NCBI RefSeq assembly: GCF_900110455.1 | Contig: NZ_FOIS01000002.1 | Span: 620,001-684,000 of the forward strand | Reading direction: 5' to 3' | DNA from: Natrinema salifodinae | GTDB taxonomy: Archaea > Halobacteriota > Halobacteria > Halobacteriales > Natrialbaceae | Length of the DNA: 64,000 nt | Part shown: in pieces, positions 13,542 through 48,865 of the stretch | Layout of the letters: the number at the start of each line of letters is the position of its first letter | Numbering within the stretch: position 1 is the stretch's first letter | The notes under the pieces: model-generated | What the model saw: the letters and a program-made list of their open reading frames with translations, nothing else | The model's database searches: none | Told to the model about the DNA's origin: nothing | Position numbers and translations under genes: made by a program

Positions 13542-14270
13542 CTAAGCGTTTCCATGCACGTCGACTTCCTCCGCCGGCTGGCCGTCCTCGCGCCAGTAGA
13601 ACCAGGGACTGAGCGTCATGTAGGCCAGGCCGAGCGTCAGGAGGGCGTAGGGGAACGTCCGGCCGGCGAAATCGGGGATGAGGACGGCCAGGACGTGGAC
13701 GACGCCCATGATGGCGGCGTCGCGAGCGAGCAAGTCGGGGTACCGGATCCGCGAGACCATCAGGTAACAGAACGCAGCGGTGACCGCGAGCACGAGCCAC
13801 GGCTGGGTCTCGTGGGCGAGGATCGCCGCGCCGAGCACCGTCGCGGCCAGCGTCGTCTGGACGCCCTCGGTGTAACTGCCGGAGATGTCGTAGGCGGTGT
13901 ACATCCCGAGGCGGGTGACGGCCATCGCGACGAACAGTGCACAGACGGCCGTCGCAACCAGGAATTCGGTCGAAATTGCGTCGGTTCCTATCGCTGGGCC
14001 GTCGGTGACGACGACAAAGGAGAGGACGGCGGGGGCGACCGCGAAGGAGGCCACGTCGGCGAGCGAGTCTAAGTACGGGCCGGCGTCAGTGCCGCCGTAC
14101 CGGCGCGCGAGGATGCCGTCGAGGCCGTCCGCGACCGCCGCCAGGAGGATCAGGCGGGCGGCGAGGTCGATGTCGACGGCGGCGACGACGACCGCGACGA
14201 ACCCCAGGGCGGCGTTGGCGATCGTTACCGCGTCGGCGACGCCGAGTCGACCGACGAACCGGGGGAGCAT
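13542..14270 (-). CDS. pssA: CDP-alcohol phosphatidyltransferase, probable archaetidylserine synthase
   Basis: This 242-residue integral membrane enzyme of phospholipid head-group synthesis carries the CDP-alcohol signature DGLDGILARRYGGTDAGPYL followed by DSLAD (about residues 48-72), with all the Asp residues that bind the metal ion and CDP. About seven hydrophobic helices follow. In archaea this family member transfers archaetidyl from CDP-archaeol to L-serine. Serine as substrate is inferred from PssA-like length and helix pattern, since inositol and glycerol enzymes share the signature. Transcribed alone; the neighbouring cupredoxin gene is divergent. Confidence 0.85.
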   Translation of the reverse strand: MLPRFVGRLGVADAVTIANAALGFVAVVVAAVDIDLAARLILLAAVADGLDGILARRYGGTDAGPYLDSLADVASFAVAPAVLSFVVVTDGPAIGTDAISTEFLVATAVCALFVAMAVTRLGMYTAYDISGSYTEGVQTTLAATVLGAAILAHETQPWLVLAVTAAFCYLMVSRIRYPDLLARDAAIMGVVHVLAVLIPDFAGRTFPYALLTLGLAYMTLSPWFYWREDGQPAEEVDVHGNA

Positions 14271-14379
14271 ATCGCGGATTCGACGGGGAGCTACCTTACG
14301 TGTTTTCGTTTCCCGACCGCCGGCTCGATTTCGAGAACTGAACCGGGGCGGTTATACCGCGACTGTCCTAAGATCCGGT

Positions 14380-14817
14380 ATGCACCGGCGCGCCTATCTC
14401 GCCGCCGTCGGCACCGCCGCGTCGACCGGCCTGGCGGGGTGTTCGTCCGCGCTCAACGTTCTCGGGGACGACCCCTGCACCGGCGAGAACTGCCACATCG
14501 GGATGAGCCGTACCGAGTTCCTCCCCGAGGTCTACGAGGTGACCGTCGGCGACACCGTCATCTGGAAGAACACGAGCGAGGCCGACCACACCGTCACGGC
14601 CTACGAGTCGCGCATTCCCGACGGCGCCGACTACTTCGCCACCGGCGACTTCGACGACCAGGCGAGCGCCTACGACGCCTGGCACGACGACCGCGGCGGT
14701 CGCCTGGCGCCCCGGGAGACGTTCGAGTACACCTTCGAGGTGCCCGGAACCTACGAGTACTACTGCATTCCACACGAGCGGGCCGAGATGGTCGGCGAGA
14801 TCGTCGTCACCGAGTAA
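14380..14817 (+). CDS. Cupredoxin (halocyanin-like) lipoprotein
   Basis: This is a 145-residue secreted blue-copper-domain protein. The N-terminus MHRRAYLAAVG has a twin-arginine motif and a lipobox ending LAGC (Cys at about 20), so it should be lipid-anchored outside the membrane. The cupredoxin fold spans about 45-145. Candidate copper ligands are His in EADHTVTAY and the Cys-His-Met set in YYCIPHERAEMVGEI. Family members carry electrons between membrane complexes. A TTATACC element about 25 nt upstream supports a leaderless start at 14380; the frame is open much further upstream but overlaps the divergent pssA gene. Confidence 0.9.
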   Translation: MHRRAYLAAVGTAASTGLAGCSSALNVLGDDPCTGENCHIGMSRTEFLPEVYEVTVGDTVIWKNTSEADHTVTAYESRIPDGADYFATGDFDDQASAYDAWHDDRGGRLAPRETFEYTFEVPGTYEYYCIPHERAEMVGEIVVTE

Positions 14818-30556: not shown

Positions 30557-31531
30557 ATGCCTCATTCAGGGAAACACCCACGCGATGACGTAAACCCGCT
30601 TTTTCGGAAGCTAACCCCAATAGGATATCACTATAACGGAAGAAACAATCAGAGGTTCGTCGGAACAGGATTTTTCTATTTTCATCAGTGGGGATTAGAT
30701 GATTATGATGACCCCAGTCTTCCTTCTACTGGACCATATCTCGTCACAAATAAGCACGTAATAAATCCACCTGATAAGAGTGATCCAGATTCACTTATCA
30801 TACACATCCGCCAATCCAGAGCCATAAGGGAGACAACCCGAAAAACTGTTGACCTTTATGATAGCGATGGATCGAAAAAATGGAGAGAGCATCCCGATAA
30901 TGAGTGGATCGATATTGCAGTCCTGCCCTTAGACTTCGATATCAAGTCTGCACATGCATTTCATCGTGCAGACATTCCTAATTATGGAAATGCTGTATCT
31001 GGTGGGGATGTTGCTAAAGTAATTGGTTATCCAAACTTACTAACTGATTTCCATTACCTTCCAATAATGCGAGATGCTTTGATTTCCAGCCCCTATCAAG
31101 TAGCTTATCATGATTCACCGTATTTCTTCATTGATTCAAGGTTACATAATGGTATGAGTGGAAGCCCTGTTATTCACATTCCAGATTATTATGAACTAAA
31201 TGATGTAGAATCGGACCTTAAAATCTCAGATGAGGAAGAAGAATTGATAGATTCTCTCCGAGTCACTGGTCCAGCAAAACGGCAGAGTCCGACATTATTG
31301 GGGATCCATTCTGATGAGGAATTTGAAACAGAAAGTCGACTCTCTCTTGATGATATTAGGGACAAGATCACAGATGACAATAGTGAACCAGGTCTAGAAG
31401 ATTATCTTGAGGAACTTGATAACCGACTAATGAGTGTGGAGCAAGATTCGGGGCTAAACCGAGTTTGGCACGCAAATCTGTTGGACGATATAATACGAAA
31501 CTGCGATAATGAGGATGTGGGCACTGTCTAG
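30557..31531 (+). CDS. Array unit H: trypsin-like serine protease, C-terminus cut by an IS
   Basis: The protein has 324 residues. The chymotrypsin-fold triad is visible: His in YLVTNKHVIN (about 74), Asp in DEWIDIAVLPLD in the variant NEWIDIAVL (about 117) and Ser in HNGMSGSPVI (about 202). FVGTGFFYF is the usual first strand. The last residues before the stop (VGTV) and the TAG itself come from the left end of the IS element, so the natural C-terminus and any right-hand array site are lost. Single trypsin-like proteases occur in anti-phage modules, but a role here is inference. Confidence 0.75.
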   Translation: MPHSGKHPRDDVNPLFRKLTPIGYHYNGRNNQRFVGTGFFYFHQWGLDDYDDPSLPSTGPYLVTNKHVINPPDKSDPDSLIIHIRQSRAIRETTRKTVDLYDSDGSKKWREHPDNEWIDIAVLPLDFDIKSAHAFHRADIPNYGNAVSGGDVAKVIGYPNLLTDFHYLPIMRDALISSPYQVAYHDSPYFFIDSRLHNGMSGSPVIHIPDYYELNDVESDLKISDEEEELIDSLRVTGPAKRQSPTLLGIHSDEEFETESRLSLDDIRDKITDDNSEPGLEDYLEELDNRLMSVEQDSGLNRVWHANLLDDIIRNCDNEDVGTV

Positions 31532-32261
31532 TTAAGCACCTCCGCTGGCGTCTGTCCGTTGAGTGACTGGTGTGGTCGTTGTATGTTATAATAGTGTCCA
31601 AATTGTTCAAGCCATTCGCGGACGCTCGCCCGACTGCCCACCCACGAGTTATGGAAGCGGTCAACTCGCATTTTGAAGGTATGAAACCACTTTTCAATCA
31701 GGTTTCGATCACCGTAGTCGAGCTGACCGCTCAACCCTAACCGAGAGAGGGCAGTCAGATATCCATAGCCATCGACGAGAAATACGGTATCGGAGAGATC
31801 GTGTTTCTTGGTCAATCGATGCAGGAACGCAGCGGCTGGATCGGTACCTCGTCGTCCAAACACTGTGACATCGAGAACGAGCCGAGAGTCTATGTCTATT
31901 GCAGCGTACACCCAAGACCAGTCGCCGTTAATCTTGACAGCGGTTTCATCAATGGCGACCCGCGACGGCTTCGCCGTCCTCAGAACGCTTCGCGTTCTGA
32001 TGGGCCGCACGAGAGCTTCGCTCTCGTGGACGTCAGCGGGTCTTGTACGCTGTCAGCCAGCCGATGTACCCAGTGCCAGATTGCTTGATGAGAGCGTTTG
32101 ACGCCGATCAAGCGAAGAATTGCTTGTGTCTCTCGAAGCGAACAGCCGGTCGCGTGGAGGCGGACGGCGAACACCCTGACGGGCGTCGCCGTCCGCTCAC
32201 GCTCCCAAGCTTCATCAAATTCCGTCGCGTAGCACTCGCTGAGCAGGTCTGCGAGCGTCAT
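31528..32261 (-). pseudogene. IS6-type DDE transposase broken by a hairpin-rich insertion
   Basis: The N-terminal part (RERTATPVRVFAVRLHATGC, HQAIWHWVHRLADSVQD) holds the HTH region. The C-terminal part holds the catalytic core: first Asp in AIDETAVKINGDWSW, then the NLIEKWFHTFKMRVDRFH segment with the last Glu, and the terminal RPHQSLNGQTPAEVLN. Between them about 56 extra bases with a stop codon shift the frame, so no full-length protein can be made from this copy. The extra bases are two GCGAAGC-loop palindromes. Confidence 0.75.
31964..32028. repeat. Three consecutive GCGAAGC/GCTTCGC hairpins in the transposase gene
   Basis: Perfect palindromes at 31964-31978 (GACGG-CTTCG-CCGTC), 31981-31999 (CAGAACG-CTTCG-CGTTCTG) and 32008-32028 (CACGAGAG-CTTCG-CTCTCGTG), with the same core loop. 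The first belongs to the transposase coding sequence; the other two are the insertion that broke it. d(GCGAAGC) is known to fold into an unusually stable mini-hairpin. Confidence 0.75.
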
Positions 32262-35145: not shown

Positions 35146-35244
35146 ACAATTTCGAGAGCGCTCCCTATATACGTTCTATCTCGTGTACGCATTCGACAAT
35201 CACGCATAGGCTTTTCTATGCTGCCAAAATTCGTTCGGATAGAA

Positions 35245-37167
35245 ATGGCCGGTAGCGATATCCTGAGACGGAAATATTTGAAATTAGCCGCGGTCAGCGG
35301 CGGCTCCGCGGCCGTCGCAGGCTGCGGGGGTTTTTTCGAAGATTCGACGGACGGGCCGGAGACGAACGCTGAACCGTCCGCGGGCGAGATCCCCGAACTA
35401 CGGATGGAGACCGCCGACTTCGCATCCGTGCGCCAGTTCGACAACGAGAACTACGCGCAGCTACACGCCTCTCGGAAGCGACGGGCGATCGAGATCCTTC
35501 TGACGGACCCGGCGGTTAACGACCTCGTTAGCGACTGGATCGCGAGCTTCGAGGCGTACGAGGTCATGACAAACCACTTGGAGACGATCAGCCTGCAGGG
35601 GCCGACCTCGCTGTCCATCGAGGAACGGGGCTTCCCCGACGGTGACACGGCCGAATTCGAGATCACGGCGGAAAATCGGCAAACCGTCTACGGATTGATC
35701 GACCGCCACCGCGACGAAATCGTCGCTCTCGAAATCACCGAGCCCCAAGACGTTGGCTGGACGAAAACGCAAAACGCCTACGAGATGGCGATCGGACAAC
35801 TGATCCACGAGACCGAGCCGGTCCGAGACGCCTTCGGGGACATGTCCGAGCGAGAGTGGTACCCCTCCTGGAAGGGTTCGGGCGGAGGATTTACCGGTCT
35901 CGGCCAGGCGGACCTGCGCCACGGCAACGGAGCGACCACGGTGATGTACGTAAAAGACGACGGGGCGGTTCGGATCATCAACGCGTTCGTCGACGGCTCC
36001 GATCCGGAGAATCCGGAGATCATCTCCGTGTCCATCCTCAATAACGCCGTGGAGTATCCGCCCACCGAGATCGCCGAAACGATCGAACCAGCCGCCAATT
36101 CGGTGGTGGACTCCCTCCCGGACGTTCCGCCCGAACACCGCCCCTACTACACGGCGAACGATGGCTATCACCGGATCGAACCGCCAGACGAGTCCTTCGA
36201 TCAGGACGACTGGACCATCGAGTGGGAGCCCGCCAACTATCAGGGCGTGACCCTCTCGGCGTCGTACCGTGACAGCCCGGTCTTCGAAGCGATGAACGCG
36301 CCGATCACGCTCACGGGCTACTACTTGCCGCCGCGAGAGGGGCGGAACACGTTCGACTGGTACTTTCCGGACGGGGACACGGTGTTCAACGGCGATCTCT
36401 TCTTCTGGGACGTTCACGGACGGGCCACCGGCGGACCGGGACTGATCGGAAAGCTCGACTTCCCGGCCCGCGGCGCCACTCCGAGCGGGTTCCAGCTGAA
36501 GAGCCACTTTCACACCGGCGCGGTCGGACGAGGGAGCGTCGATTTTCACACCGGATTCCGTTTCGGTCCCTACAACTACGATATCGCCTACGAGTTCTAC
36601 GAGGACGGCGTCTTCTCTCCGATCTTCCGGCGGACCGGTCCGGGCTACGTCAACCTGTTCGTCCAGAAGATTCGCGAGAACGCCGACACGTACGGGGAAT
36701 CCGGCTCCTACGAGGAGCCTGTCGTCCAACACTACACCGCGACCCAGGCGATCGACGTGACGCCTGGTACCGAGGACGGTGTGGCGGTCGAACTCTTCGA
36801 CGGTGACGAGTGGACGACGCCCGAGGAGGAGTTCTACCTCGAAGCCGAAGCGGGAATGATCGCCCGGTTCAGCAATCCCGACGGGCCGGAGACGGTCGAC
36901 GTGCCCCTCGACGACGACATGGAACTCGTCGTGGTTCGCCGAGACGAGACGGAGATCGGGCCAGGCGAGTATCCTGCCCACCGACGCGAGGACGAGGAGA
37001 CGCCGTCGAGCCTCGCTCATCCGGCGCAGTACGTCGATGGCCAGGCCGTGCAGGGAGAGCGGGTCATCGTCTGGCTGCTCATGGTCGGGGCGACGAGTCA
37101 GGTGCCCCACCCCACGGGGACGGCAAACTTCGTTACGTCGGCACAGCTGACGCTGTCCGGGTACTGA
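35245..37167 (+). CDS. Secreted copper amine oxidase-like protein with altered copper site
   Basis: The protein has 640 residues. A Tat lipoprotein signal (LRRKYLKLAAVSGG, lipobox AGC) is followed by the C-terminal catalytic-like region of copper amine oxidases: PYNYDIAYEFYEDGVF, where Y445 sits at the topaquinone position, and VIVWLLMVGATSQVPHP near the end. H496 lies 51 residues after Y445, as the first HxH ligand does in known enzymes, but the second His is Thr498, and the third-ligand His of the TH.P motif reads Gln. Copper binding is therefore doubtful. Length is about family size. Next gene is 12 bp downstream. Confidence 0.7.
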   Translation: MAGSDILRRKYLKLAAVSGGSAAVAGCGGFFEDSTDGPETNAEPSAGEIPELRMETADFASVRQFDNENYAQLHASRKRRAIEILLTDPAVNDLVSDWIASFEAYEVMTNHLETISLQGPTSLSIEERGFPDGDTAEFEITAENRQTVYGLIDRHRDEIVALEITEPQDVGWTKTQNAYEMAIGQLIHETEPVRDAFGDMSEREWYPSWKGSGGGFTGLGQADLRHGNGATTVMYVKDDGAVRIINAFVDGSDPENPEIISVSILNNAVEYPPTEIAETIEPAANSVVDSLPDVPPEHRPYYTANDGYHRIEPPDESFDQDDWTIEWEPANYQGVTLSASYRDSPVFEAMNAPITLTGYYLPPREGRNTFDWYFPDGDTVFNGDLFFWDVHGRATGGPGLIGKLDFPARGATPSGFQLKSHFHTGAVGRGSVDFHTGFRFGPYNYDIAYEFYEDGVFSPIFRRTGPGYVNLFVQKIRENADTYGESGSYEEPVVQHYTATQAIDVTPGTEDGVAVELFDGDEWTTPEEEFYLEAEAGMIARFSNPDGPETVDVPLDDDMELVVVRRDETEIGPGEYPAHRREDEETPSSLAHPAQYVDGQAVQGERVIVWLLMVGATSQVPHPTGTANFVTSAQLTLSGY

Positions 37168-37179
37168 GAGCGATCGACG

Positions 37180-38487
37180 ATGCCTCCGATCGACGACCGC
37201 GAGAACGCTCGTGTGACGGCGAAACCCTCGCGGAGAGCGTTCCTACGCGCGGCGGTTGCGAGCGGCGGAAGCGCCGCGCTCGCGGCCTGCCTCGACGATG
37301 AATCGTCGCTGGACGCTCCGTCGGGCGTGGCAGAGCCCGCCTCGCTTCCCGACCGACAGCACGCCTGGAACGACGCGTTGCCGAGGGATGGAGACGGAAA
37401 CGTTAGACCGCCCGCCCACCACGTCTTCCTCGGCCTGTCGCTGACGAGCGAACCGGACGCCGCGGCTCGGGAGACCGTGGCAACGGCGCTGCGCGAGGTC
37501 GAGCAGGCCCTCGAGTGGAGCGGGGACGGGGTCCTCTTTACGATCGGCTATACCCCGGCGTACTTCGACCGATTCGACGCGTCGCTCGACGACGCCGTCG
37601 ACCTTCCGGAGCCGGATCCGATCGTCGTCCTCGCCGTCGAAAGCAACGCAACGGTTGATACGAACGACGCGCTGGTACACCTTGCGAGCGACGACGCCGC
37701 CGTGGTGCTCGCCGTCGAAGCGGCCCTGTTCGGCGAGCGTGGCCGGCTCAACGGCCGATCGCTGTCGGCGACGCTCGACGCGGTCTTCGAGCGATCGACC
37801 CGTCGAACCGGCTTCGTCGGTCCGGGCCTTCCGGCCGACCGACAGGACGGTCTCGAGGGAATCCCCGAGGGCGAGCCGGTGCCCGACGCGGCCCCGTTCT
37901 TCATGGGCTTCCGGTCGGGCTTCCGAGAGAGCCAGGCGACCGAAGATCGGGTCACGATTCAGGAGGGACCCTTTGCCGGCGGAGCGACGCAACACTTCGA
38001 GACCCTCGAACTCGACCTTGACGTCTGGTTCGAAGAGAGCGACCACGAGCAGCGCGTCGCACGGCTGTTCAGTCCCGAGCACGCCGAGCGAGGGGCGGTC
38101 GGCGAGTACGGCGAACGCCTCGGGGCCGAAACCGGCGTCGACGCGGTCACCGACGCGATCCACGAACACGCCCGGAAGGACGGCGTCGTGGGGCACGCCC
38201 AAAAACTCGCTCGAGCGCGCGAGGACGGCGAGCCGGTGTTGCTCCGGCGGGACGTCAACACGACCGACGGCGACGCCGCCGGGCTCCACTTTCTCTCCCT
38301 GCAGCGGGAGATCGGTGAGTTCACCCGCGTGAGGGAGGCGATGGTCGGCGAGGAGTTCGGCCGGTACGGGCTCGGGCCGCGCCAAAGTAACGGGATCCTC
38401 CAGTATCTCCGAGTCCGACGGTGGGGAAGCTACCTCGTGCCGCCGCGGGCGCATCGGGCGCTCCCGACGCCCGCCCCCGAGCCGTGA
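37180..38487 (+). CDS. Secreted DyP-type peroxidase-like protein with Ser in the GxxDG motif
   Basis: The protein has 435 residues. The Tat signal is PSRRAFLRAAVASGG with a lipobox ending AAC. The DyP fold is recognised by HHVFLGLSLTS, the C-terminal LLRRDVNTTDGDAAGLHFLS (heme-edge Arg) and GHAQKLARA, which resembles the SHxR proximal-His segment. The hallmark GxxDG catalytic loop reads MGFRSGF, so the catalytic Asp is Ser246. Peroxidase chemistry may be lost or changed. It is 12 bp after the amine oxidase-like gene, so the two probably act together at the cell surface. Confidence 0.75.
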   Translation: MPPIDDRENARVTAKPSRRAFLRAAVASGGSAALAACLDDESSLDAPSGVAEPASLPDRQHAWNDALPRDGDGNVRPPAHHVFLGLSLTSEPDAAARETVATALREVEQALEWSGDGVLFTIGYTPAYFDRFDASLDDAVDLPEPDPIVVLAVESNATVDTNDALVHLASDDAAVVLAVEAALFGERGRLNGRSLSATLDAVFERSTRRTGFVGPGLPADRQDGLEGIPEGEPVPDAAPFFMGFRSGFRESQATEDRVTIQEGPFAGGATQHFETLELDLDVWFEESDHEQRVARLFSPEHAERGAVGEYGERLGAETGVDAVTDAIHEHARKDGVVGHAQKLARAREDGEPVLLRRDVNTTDGDAAGLHFLSLQREIGEFTRVREAMVGEEFGRYGLGPRQSNGILQYLRVRRWGSYLVPPRAHRALPTPAPEP

Positions 38488-48145: not shown

Positions 48146-48865
48146 TCAGTGGTCGTGATCGTCGTGGCCGTCGTCGCCGTGGCCGCCGTCGCCGTGATCG
48201 TCCCCCACCTGTCCGTCGGGACCCGCCTCGAGCGCGTCGCGGACCTGTTCGTTGTACCGCTCGAGTTGCTCGATGGCGGCGTCGGGGCGCTCGTCGGCGG
48301 GCGGCTCCAACCCGGGTTGACCGTCCGGCTCCGGCCAGCCGACGACGACGGTGCCGACCATTCCCTCCTTCTCGTGGGGCGTACAGGCGTAGTCGTAGAC
48401 GCCTTCGACGTCGAACGTTCGCTCGAAGGTCTCGCCGTCGTCGCTCAACAACCCGCTCTCCCAGGGCTCGGCGTCCTCGGGGATCCGCTGTTGATCGCCG
48501 TAGGCATCCGGATGATATGCGATCGTGTCGTGGGTGCCGCTCTCCAGAACCCACTCGACGGTCCCGCCGACCTCGACGTGAACGACGTGGGGGATGAAGT
48601 GCCGGCCCGCGTCGTTGGACCCCATCCCGACCTGTATTTCGGAGACCGGCTGCCCGACCTCGTGGTCGGGCGAGTGGTCGTGGTCGCCGTGCTCGTCCCC
48701 GTCGGGATCGTCCGACCGGTCGCCGGCGTCGTCCGAGCCGTCGGTGCCGTTCTGTGCCTCCTCCGCCTCCGTTTCGTCCCCGCCGAGACAGCCCGCGAGT
48801 CCGAGTGCGAGGACACCGCTCCCGGCAGTCAACAGTCGGCGGCGACGAACGTCTGGTCCAATCAT
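48146..48865 (-). CDS. Halocyanin-like copper protein with a His/Asp tail
   Basis: The protein has 239 residues. The signal VRRRRLLTAGSGVLALGLAGC is a Tat lipoprotein type. After an acidic linker comes the blue-copper domain (about 75-165): a ligand His in ESGTHDTIAYHP, and YACTPHEKEGMVGTV with Cys, His and Met ligands. The last 20 residues are alternating His, Asp and Gly (GGHGDDGHDDHDH), a likely metal-binding or copper-loading tail. A second His-rich segment (DEHGDHDHSPDHE) lies in the linker. It should carry electrons at the outer membrane face. Confidence 0.9.
   Translation of the reverse strand: MIGPDVRRRRLLTAGSGVLALGLAGCLGGDETEAEEAQNGTDGSDDAGDRSDDPDGDEHGDHDHSPDHEVGQPVSEIQVGMGSNDAGRHFIPHVVHVEVGGTVEWVLESGTHDTIAYHPDAYGDQQRIPEDAEPWESGLLSDDGETFERTFDVEGVYDYACTPHEKEGMVGTVVVGWPEPDGQPGLEPPADERPDAAIEQLERYNEQVRDALEAGPDGQVGDDHGDGGHGDDGHDDHDH

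Follow-up and report, generated by a model that had tools for sequence, protein, structure and literature searches.

Two adjacent genes of the haloarchaeon Natrinema salifodinae pose the question of what becomes of redox enzymes that have lost some of their active-site residues. They lie in a stretch of 64,000 nucleotides (contig NZ_FOIS01000002.1, positions 620,001 to 684,000), hereafter called the window, and their products resemble a copper amine oxidase (CAO) and a dye-decolorizing peroxidase (DyP), respectively. An initial annotation of the locus regarded both proteins as lacking catalytic residues and proposed a redox-sensing or structural pair. Our analysis favors instead a conserved extracytoplasmic redox pair, in which the CAO-fold protein would pass electrons to an external partner, here a heme protein; we place the probability of this reading at somewhat less than one half (about 0.45). 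The amine oxidase-like (AO-like) gene (35245..37167, + strand, like every residue position given below) encodes 640 residues, and the DyP-like gene (37180..38487, +), of the Pfam family DUF7405, encodes a probable heme protein of 435 residues. The gap of 12 bp between them (37168..37179, +) is as originally described. The first in-frame ATG of the AO-like open reading frame (ORF) is at 35218 (649 residues), and the Met at 35245 is the start in most pair orthologs; our residue numbers follow the 649-residue ORF, so that those of the initial annotation, based on 640 residues, are 9 lower. Both products carry a twin-arginine translocation (Tat) signal, as had been recognized, followed by a lipobox cysteine (AGC36, 35323..35325, in the AO-like protein; AAC37, 37288..37290, kept in 88 of 91 DUF7405 proteins), and are therefore probably Tat lipoproteins anchored outside the cell.

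The association of the two genes is confined to one clade, and within it no exception was found. AO-like proteins that are at least 59% identical have DUF7405 encoded directly downstream in 19 of 19 cases, and the remaining AO-like genes in none of 42; conversely, DUF7405 proteins that are at least 63% identical are accompanied by an AO-like gene in 19/19 cases, and other DUF7405 proteins in 0/72. The pair clade forms a single branch, with support of 100, in the AO-like tree (from which the truncated L080 is absent). The gap between the paired genes spans 4-45 bp in 18 pair loci, computed from the ORF starts as used and minus the stop codon, with L005 left out because its DUF7405 ORF was called too long and yields a negative distance. 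Wider flanks were compared for 15 pair loci, among which two come from a single species, and only the AO-like and DUF7405 genes recur throughout. The pair is carried by 15 of the 121 genomes of the family. Given the invariable adjacency, the single well-supported branch and flanks with nothing else in common, the notion that AO-like and DUF7405 genes constitute a functional pair is strongly supported.

The nature of the first protein is revealed by structure prediction. Its sequence matches no Pfam and no NCBIfam family at E<=1 and finds no relative in the PDB by sequence-only search; the CAO profile PF01179 has no match in the genome of the window, and true CAOs are rare, PF01179 exceeding its cut-off in only 2 of 246 genomes. 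The AlphaFold model, built on 22 sequences (mean predicted local distance difference test, pLDDT, 64; predicted template modelling score 0.69), has a best Foldseek match with E 1.1e-15, all 50 matches listed are CAOs, and residues 187-649 align with Arthrobacter globiformis AGAO over 340 residues (VIA Z 22.9, root-mean-square deviation 5.0). The AO-like protein thus has the CAO fold, and its family represents a known fold rather than a new one. A global hhalign comparison of the AO-like family with CAOs gives no alignment, and two short local profile matches serve as anchors, FGPY452NY against VGNYDY and a strand ending near Trp619; beyond these two anchors, the residue map is by position.

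The first anchor concerns the tyrosine that CAOs convert into topaquinone. The segment containing Tyr452-Asn-Tyr454 (36571..36579) aligns ungapped with the CAO motif at E values of 0.01-0.1, which are weak, yet the match falls at no other place, and the two most distant relatives (23% identity) give the same alignment at this slot, GPYRYLIDWNFHDDG. Because the profile alignments, including those of these two distant members, fall there, the topaquinone slot is assigned to Tyr452 (443 in the previous numbering), and not to Tyr454, the Tyr445 that had been proposed for this role. With respect to the consensus quoted in a portion of PMC3382800, Pro451 and Asn453 of the surrounding Arg-Phe-Gly-Pro-Tyr-Asn fall outside it, and around Tyr454 only the Asn-Tyr-Asp part agrees.

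The copper site tells a different story. Among seven reference CAOs, four have a readable GNYD motif and all four present an HxH at +49 to +58, whereas no HxH is found 30-90 residues after the slot tyrosine in any of 61 AO-like relatives (distinct sequences, excluding L151, a broken gene in three pieces that is also excluded from the loci counted below). The place of the HxH copper ligands is occupied by His505-Tyr-Thr507 (36730..36738), with His at column 507 in 0/61. Near the third copper histidine lies Gln628 (37099..37101), a column that holds Q, E, D, A or R and, like column 626, His in 0/61; column 627 has His in 4/61, and the register of this region hangs on a single weak local alignment. 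A nearby His631 is found in 49 of the 61 relatives and is His or Tyr inside the pair clade. Since no relative has an HxH, the copper site is lost across the whole AO-like family. The residues cited by the initial annotation as Tyr445, His496 and Thr498 (454, 505 and 507 here) are where it had put them, and its reading of Thr and Gln in place of two ligands agrees with these columns; its retained first copper histidine is seen in 19/19 members of the pair clade and in only 28/61 relatives at that column. As the strand register is also unsure, we rejected His505-Tyr-Thr507 as the site of one retained ligand.

Other residues of the AO-like protein are well conserved. Asp398 (36409..36411) is invariant (61/61) and, by position though not by profile, may correspond to the catalytic base of CAOs; His400 and His430 are nearly invariant and His444 (36547..36549) is present in 54/61. 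Within His430-x-His432 (36505..36513), His432 occurs in exactly those 51 relatives that have Tyr452; ten relatives have neither residue and none has only one of them. One could conceive that His430, His432 and His444, perhaps with His400, form a relocated metal site that replaces the CAO copper and supports a quinone at Tyr452 or some other chemistry. In 49/61 relatives an HxH precedes Tyr452 by 21-22 residues, and the concurrence of His432 and Tyr452 (51 to 10) is without exception; nevertheless, the loop has low model confidence and the two most distant members lack His430 and His444 yet keep His432 and Tyr452, which leaves this proposal highly doubtful. The ten relatives devoid of Tyr452 amount to one clade with one long-branch member. 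In 7-8 loci (e.g. L070:3349-4880, L156:946-1847, L160:5789-7313), the AO-like genes of this clade have in their vicinity a conserved cassette of uncharacterized small genes, which encodes a Tat-signal protein of about 175 residues, a 108-residue protein and, in several loci, the product of a third gene; the three cassette genes of L070 have no Pfam match over cut-off.

The partner protein matches Pfam DUF7405 (PF24152) with 504.7 bits against a cut-off of 27.1, and is far more widespread than the pair: within the family, 117 of 121 genomes encode a relative, and in the haloarchaeal class DUF7405 is present in 172 of the 194 genomes sampled. Because its AlphaFold model reaches a pLDDT of only 35.7, its relationships were assessed by profile-profile alignment and not by fold search. 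Alignment of DUF7405 with bacterial DyPs, including Escherichia coli EfeB, gives E values of 3.9e-11 (27 sequences) and 1.1e-13 (91 sequences), as opposed to 0.02-0.35 for unrelated control alignments, and the match between the DUF7405 and AO-like profiles is confined to the Tat signal region. Only 3 of 246 genomes score above the cut-off of the DyP C-terminal family PF20628; the three loci concerned all encode DUF7405 proteins. By these profiles, DUF7405 is a member of the DyP superfamily. Ser246 (37915..37917) occupies the position of the GxxDG aspartate (EfeB Asp235), where 60 of the 91 proteins have Ser, 30 Ala and one Gly; His339 (38194..38196), aligned with the proximal heme ligand His329 of EfeB, is found in 91/91, and Arg356-Arg357 (38245..38250) aligns with EfeB Arg347-Arg348, which includes the distal arginine, Arg356 being kept in 91/91. 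We take Asp235, His329 and Arg347 to be active-site residues of EfeB; for DyPs in general, the roles of the corresponding motif residues are treated in PMC7611857. Loss of the distal aspartate is thus a trait of the DUF7405 family that leaves the histidine and arginine of the heme site in place and, with proximal His339 and distal Arg356 kept in 91/91, DUF7405 probably still binds heme. None of the viral contigs searched encodes DUF7405; in the literature searched, no paper names DUF7405 and nothing was found on dye-decolorizing peroxidases and Tat export in haloarchaea.

These patterns bear on two other accounts of the locus. In the first, the AO-like protein would still work as an oxidase, and DUF7405, as a peroxidase, would dispose of the hydrogen peroxide formed, a scheme suited to adjacent genes whose products are exported to the same side, and to classical CAOs, which produce hydrogen peroxide according to the relevant passage of PMC3382800. 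We find this very unlikely, since the copper HxH is present in 0/61 relatives and topaquinone formation, in that same source, requires copper on three conserved histidines, and since the distal aspartate that deprotonates hydrogen peroxide in a B-class DyP (as stated in part of PMC6153280) is missing in 91/91 DUF7405 proteins, a loss tempered by indications in a section of PMC8463360 that some DyPs can use Arg in place of Asp. The second account is that of the initial annotation, in which two pseudoenzymes persist as a pair with a structural or redox-sensing role. The copper ligands and the GxxDG aspartate are indeed gone family-wide, so that the substitutions, Ser246 included, are neither unique to this strain nor specific to a subgroup, and the AO-like protein, as noted, eludes both Pfam and NCBIfam. 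The claim that both proteins lack catalytic residues is nevertheless wrong for the DyP-like protein, in which the distal aspartate alone is replaced and the heme-site histidine and arginine are invariant. Two dead enzymes are also hard to reconcile with the AO-like protein keeping Asp398, and Tyr452/His432 in 51/61 relatives, with the near-invariance of Asp398, His400 and His430, and with the redox partners found in sister clades, and we deem this account unlikely. Because the heme ligand is kept and those partners are blue-copper proteins, the redox half of the original proposal is favored over the structural one.

The evidence from sister clades concerns the company kept by AO-like and DUF7405 genes when they are not together. 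Of 44 non-pair AO-like loci (two more than the 42 above, wider regions having added a few sequences), 21 have a blue-copper protein that is fused to the AO-like protein or encoded no more than 1.5 kb away, a count that overstates independence since these loci are related, and that treats as absent a blue-copper gene at 1.6 kb in L230 (labelled divergent in the tree); in L074 the sequence extends only 352 bp upstream. The corresponding figures are 0/19 for pair loci and 0/62 for control loci, namely stand-alone DUF7405 genes flanked on either side by 1 kb or more. Three arrangements are observed next to AO-like genes (divergent upstream, directly downstream and N-terminal fusion), and the assignment to PF00127 has E values of 4.1e-14 or better in 4/4 neighbors and of 5.3e-5 or better in 3/3 fusions scanned. 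These arrangements fall into separate parts of the tree, the most distant members included, with blue-copper partners found in the outgroup, in a single large clade and in the clade of fusions. The literature searched yielded nothing on copper amine oxidases in haloarchaea, and no such pair is mentioned in the portions consulted of the literature on halocyanins and amine oxidases. Separately, an AO-like paralog in the genome of the window (L002, G000:C2:522977-524827) is 46% identical and has neither a DUF7405 nor a blue-copper gene nearby, and the AO-like gene of L151 (G120:C1:194000-202000), split into three reading frames, is apparently a pseudogene.

The stand-alone DUF7405 genes closest to the pair have yet another neighbor. 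In the closest stand-alone clade (L047-L061), a P19-like Fe2+ transport gene adjoins in 15/15 loci, downstream on the same strand in 14 and divergently in L052; it comprises PF10634 and DUF7350 in two named examples, and plasmid pHMA155 of Haloarcula marismortui shows the same arrangement. The partner therefore changes by clade: DUF7405 or a blue-copper protein for the AO-like family, and a P19-like protein for the closest stand-alone DUF7405. These P19-like neighbors make iron handling the strongest rival to an electron-transfer pair: in such a module for iron or heme, DUF7405 would act as an EfeB-like component of an iron-uptake system, the CAO-fold protein replacing the P19-like partner. 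EfeB is a Tat-exported heme protein of EfeUOB systems (described in part of PMC9174327), and a gene for an archaeal Dps protein is oriented divergently next to the stand-alone DUF7405 gene of the window's genome (L112, G000:C1:448000-460000). Even so, we consider an iron module rather unlikely, given that neither a permease nor a P19-like gene is conserved in the flanks of the pair loci, that two P19-like queries (tblastn) had no match within 600 bp of the 19 pair DUF7405 genes, at least 12 of these loci holding less than 200 bp downstream, and that the other recurrent partners of the AO-like family are blue-copper, not iron, proteins. The stand-alone DUF7405 gene of L112 is followed by that of P0001, a protein with a Tat signal that belongs to no known family; of 19 further genomes searched, 5 have a match to it, in one case only a short and weak one.

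The linkage of its relatives to blue-copper proteins suggests that the AO-like protein is electron-passing rather than dead, and the combination of a CAO fold without copper ligands with frequent electron-transfer proteins nearby points to a redox protein with a partner as electron acceptor. In the redox pair we favor, the copper-ligand-less CAO-fold protein would oxidize a substrate outside the cell and deliver the electrons to a partner rather than, via copper, to oxygen; this partner would be a blue-copper protein of the halocyanin type in sister clades, and the DUF7405 heme protein in the pair clade. The analysis demonstrates the fold of the AO-like protein, the residues lost and kept, the adjacency and the exchange of partners between clades; heme binding, electron transfer, the nature of a cofactor at Tyr452/His432 and the substrate itself we infer. 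A more specific version, a copper-free quinone-type dehydrogenase in which either a metal relocated to His430/432/444 or, acting in trans like MauG, the DyP-like protein with its heme would convert Tyr452 into a redox cofactor, the electrons then leaving for blue copper in the majority of clades and for the heme of DUF7405 in the pair clade, strikes us as distinctly unlikely.

Several observations weigh against a redox pair. Adjacency does not show electron transfer, and 23 of the 44 non-pair loci have no blue-copper gene within 1.5 kb, among them a seven-member clade that includes the own-genome paralog. Haloarchaea have several halocyanins each. The blue-copper domain is fused to one member without Tyr452 (L237), which also led us to discard the idea that the Tyr452-less clade is wholly without a redox partner, a trend only. 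Loss of Tyr452/His432 reflects one clade, perhaps two events, and the coupling of both residues is therefore statistically weak. Finally, the active-site loops of the AO-like model (432-452, 490-502 and 627-636) have pLDDT below 50 and give no residue-level structure, and the DyP-like model, from 8 sequences, is unusable.

Between 20001 and 32000 of the window, G+C content drops to 0.47-0.54, compared with about 0.66 elsewhere, and an ORF at 31528-32010 (-) is presumably transposase-like; this region, which lies immediately upstream of the pair, resembles an integrated element. Further blue-copper-like ORFs lie in the window at 48149-48865 (-) and 13897-14814 (+), distant from the pair.

Compared with known systems, the AO-like protein shares with CAOs (PF01179; E. 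coli TynA, AGAO) the fold, the slot tyrosine and, by position, a candidate for the catalytic base (Asp398), and differs in being a lipoprotein with a proposed external redox partner. DUF7405 resembles DyP peroxidases and EfeB (PF20628) in profile over most of the protein, in the proximal His and distal Arg and in Tat export, and departs from them in having Ser, Ala or Gly for the GxxDG aspartate in 91/91, in its lipobox and in a pair that lies outside an EfeUOB operon. Stand-alone haloarchaeal DUF7405 proteins, of the same Pfam family and about 55-59% identical to those of pairs, have PF10634/DUF7350 as partner where the pair has a CAO-fold protein. A further parallel is that of methylamine dehydrogenase, amicyanin and MauG, which are, respectively, a quinone-type dehydrogenase, its blue-copper acceptor and a heme enzyme; the likeness is in logic only, for the folds are unrelated and neither a quinone nor its maturation is evidenced for the pair. 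For the haloarchaea, DUF7405 gains from this analysis a testable identity as a DyP-type heme protein devoid of the distal aspartate. More generally, CAOs build their own quinone with copper, and a family of this fold that retains the tyrosine slot, lacks the copper ligands and associates with blue-copper or heme partners would, if the proposed reading is true, represent the conversion of an oxidase into a partner-dependent dehydrogenase.

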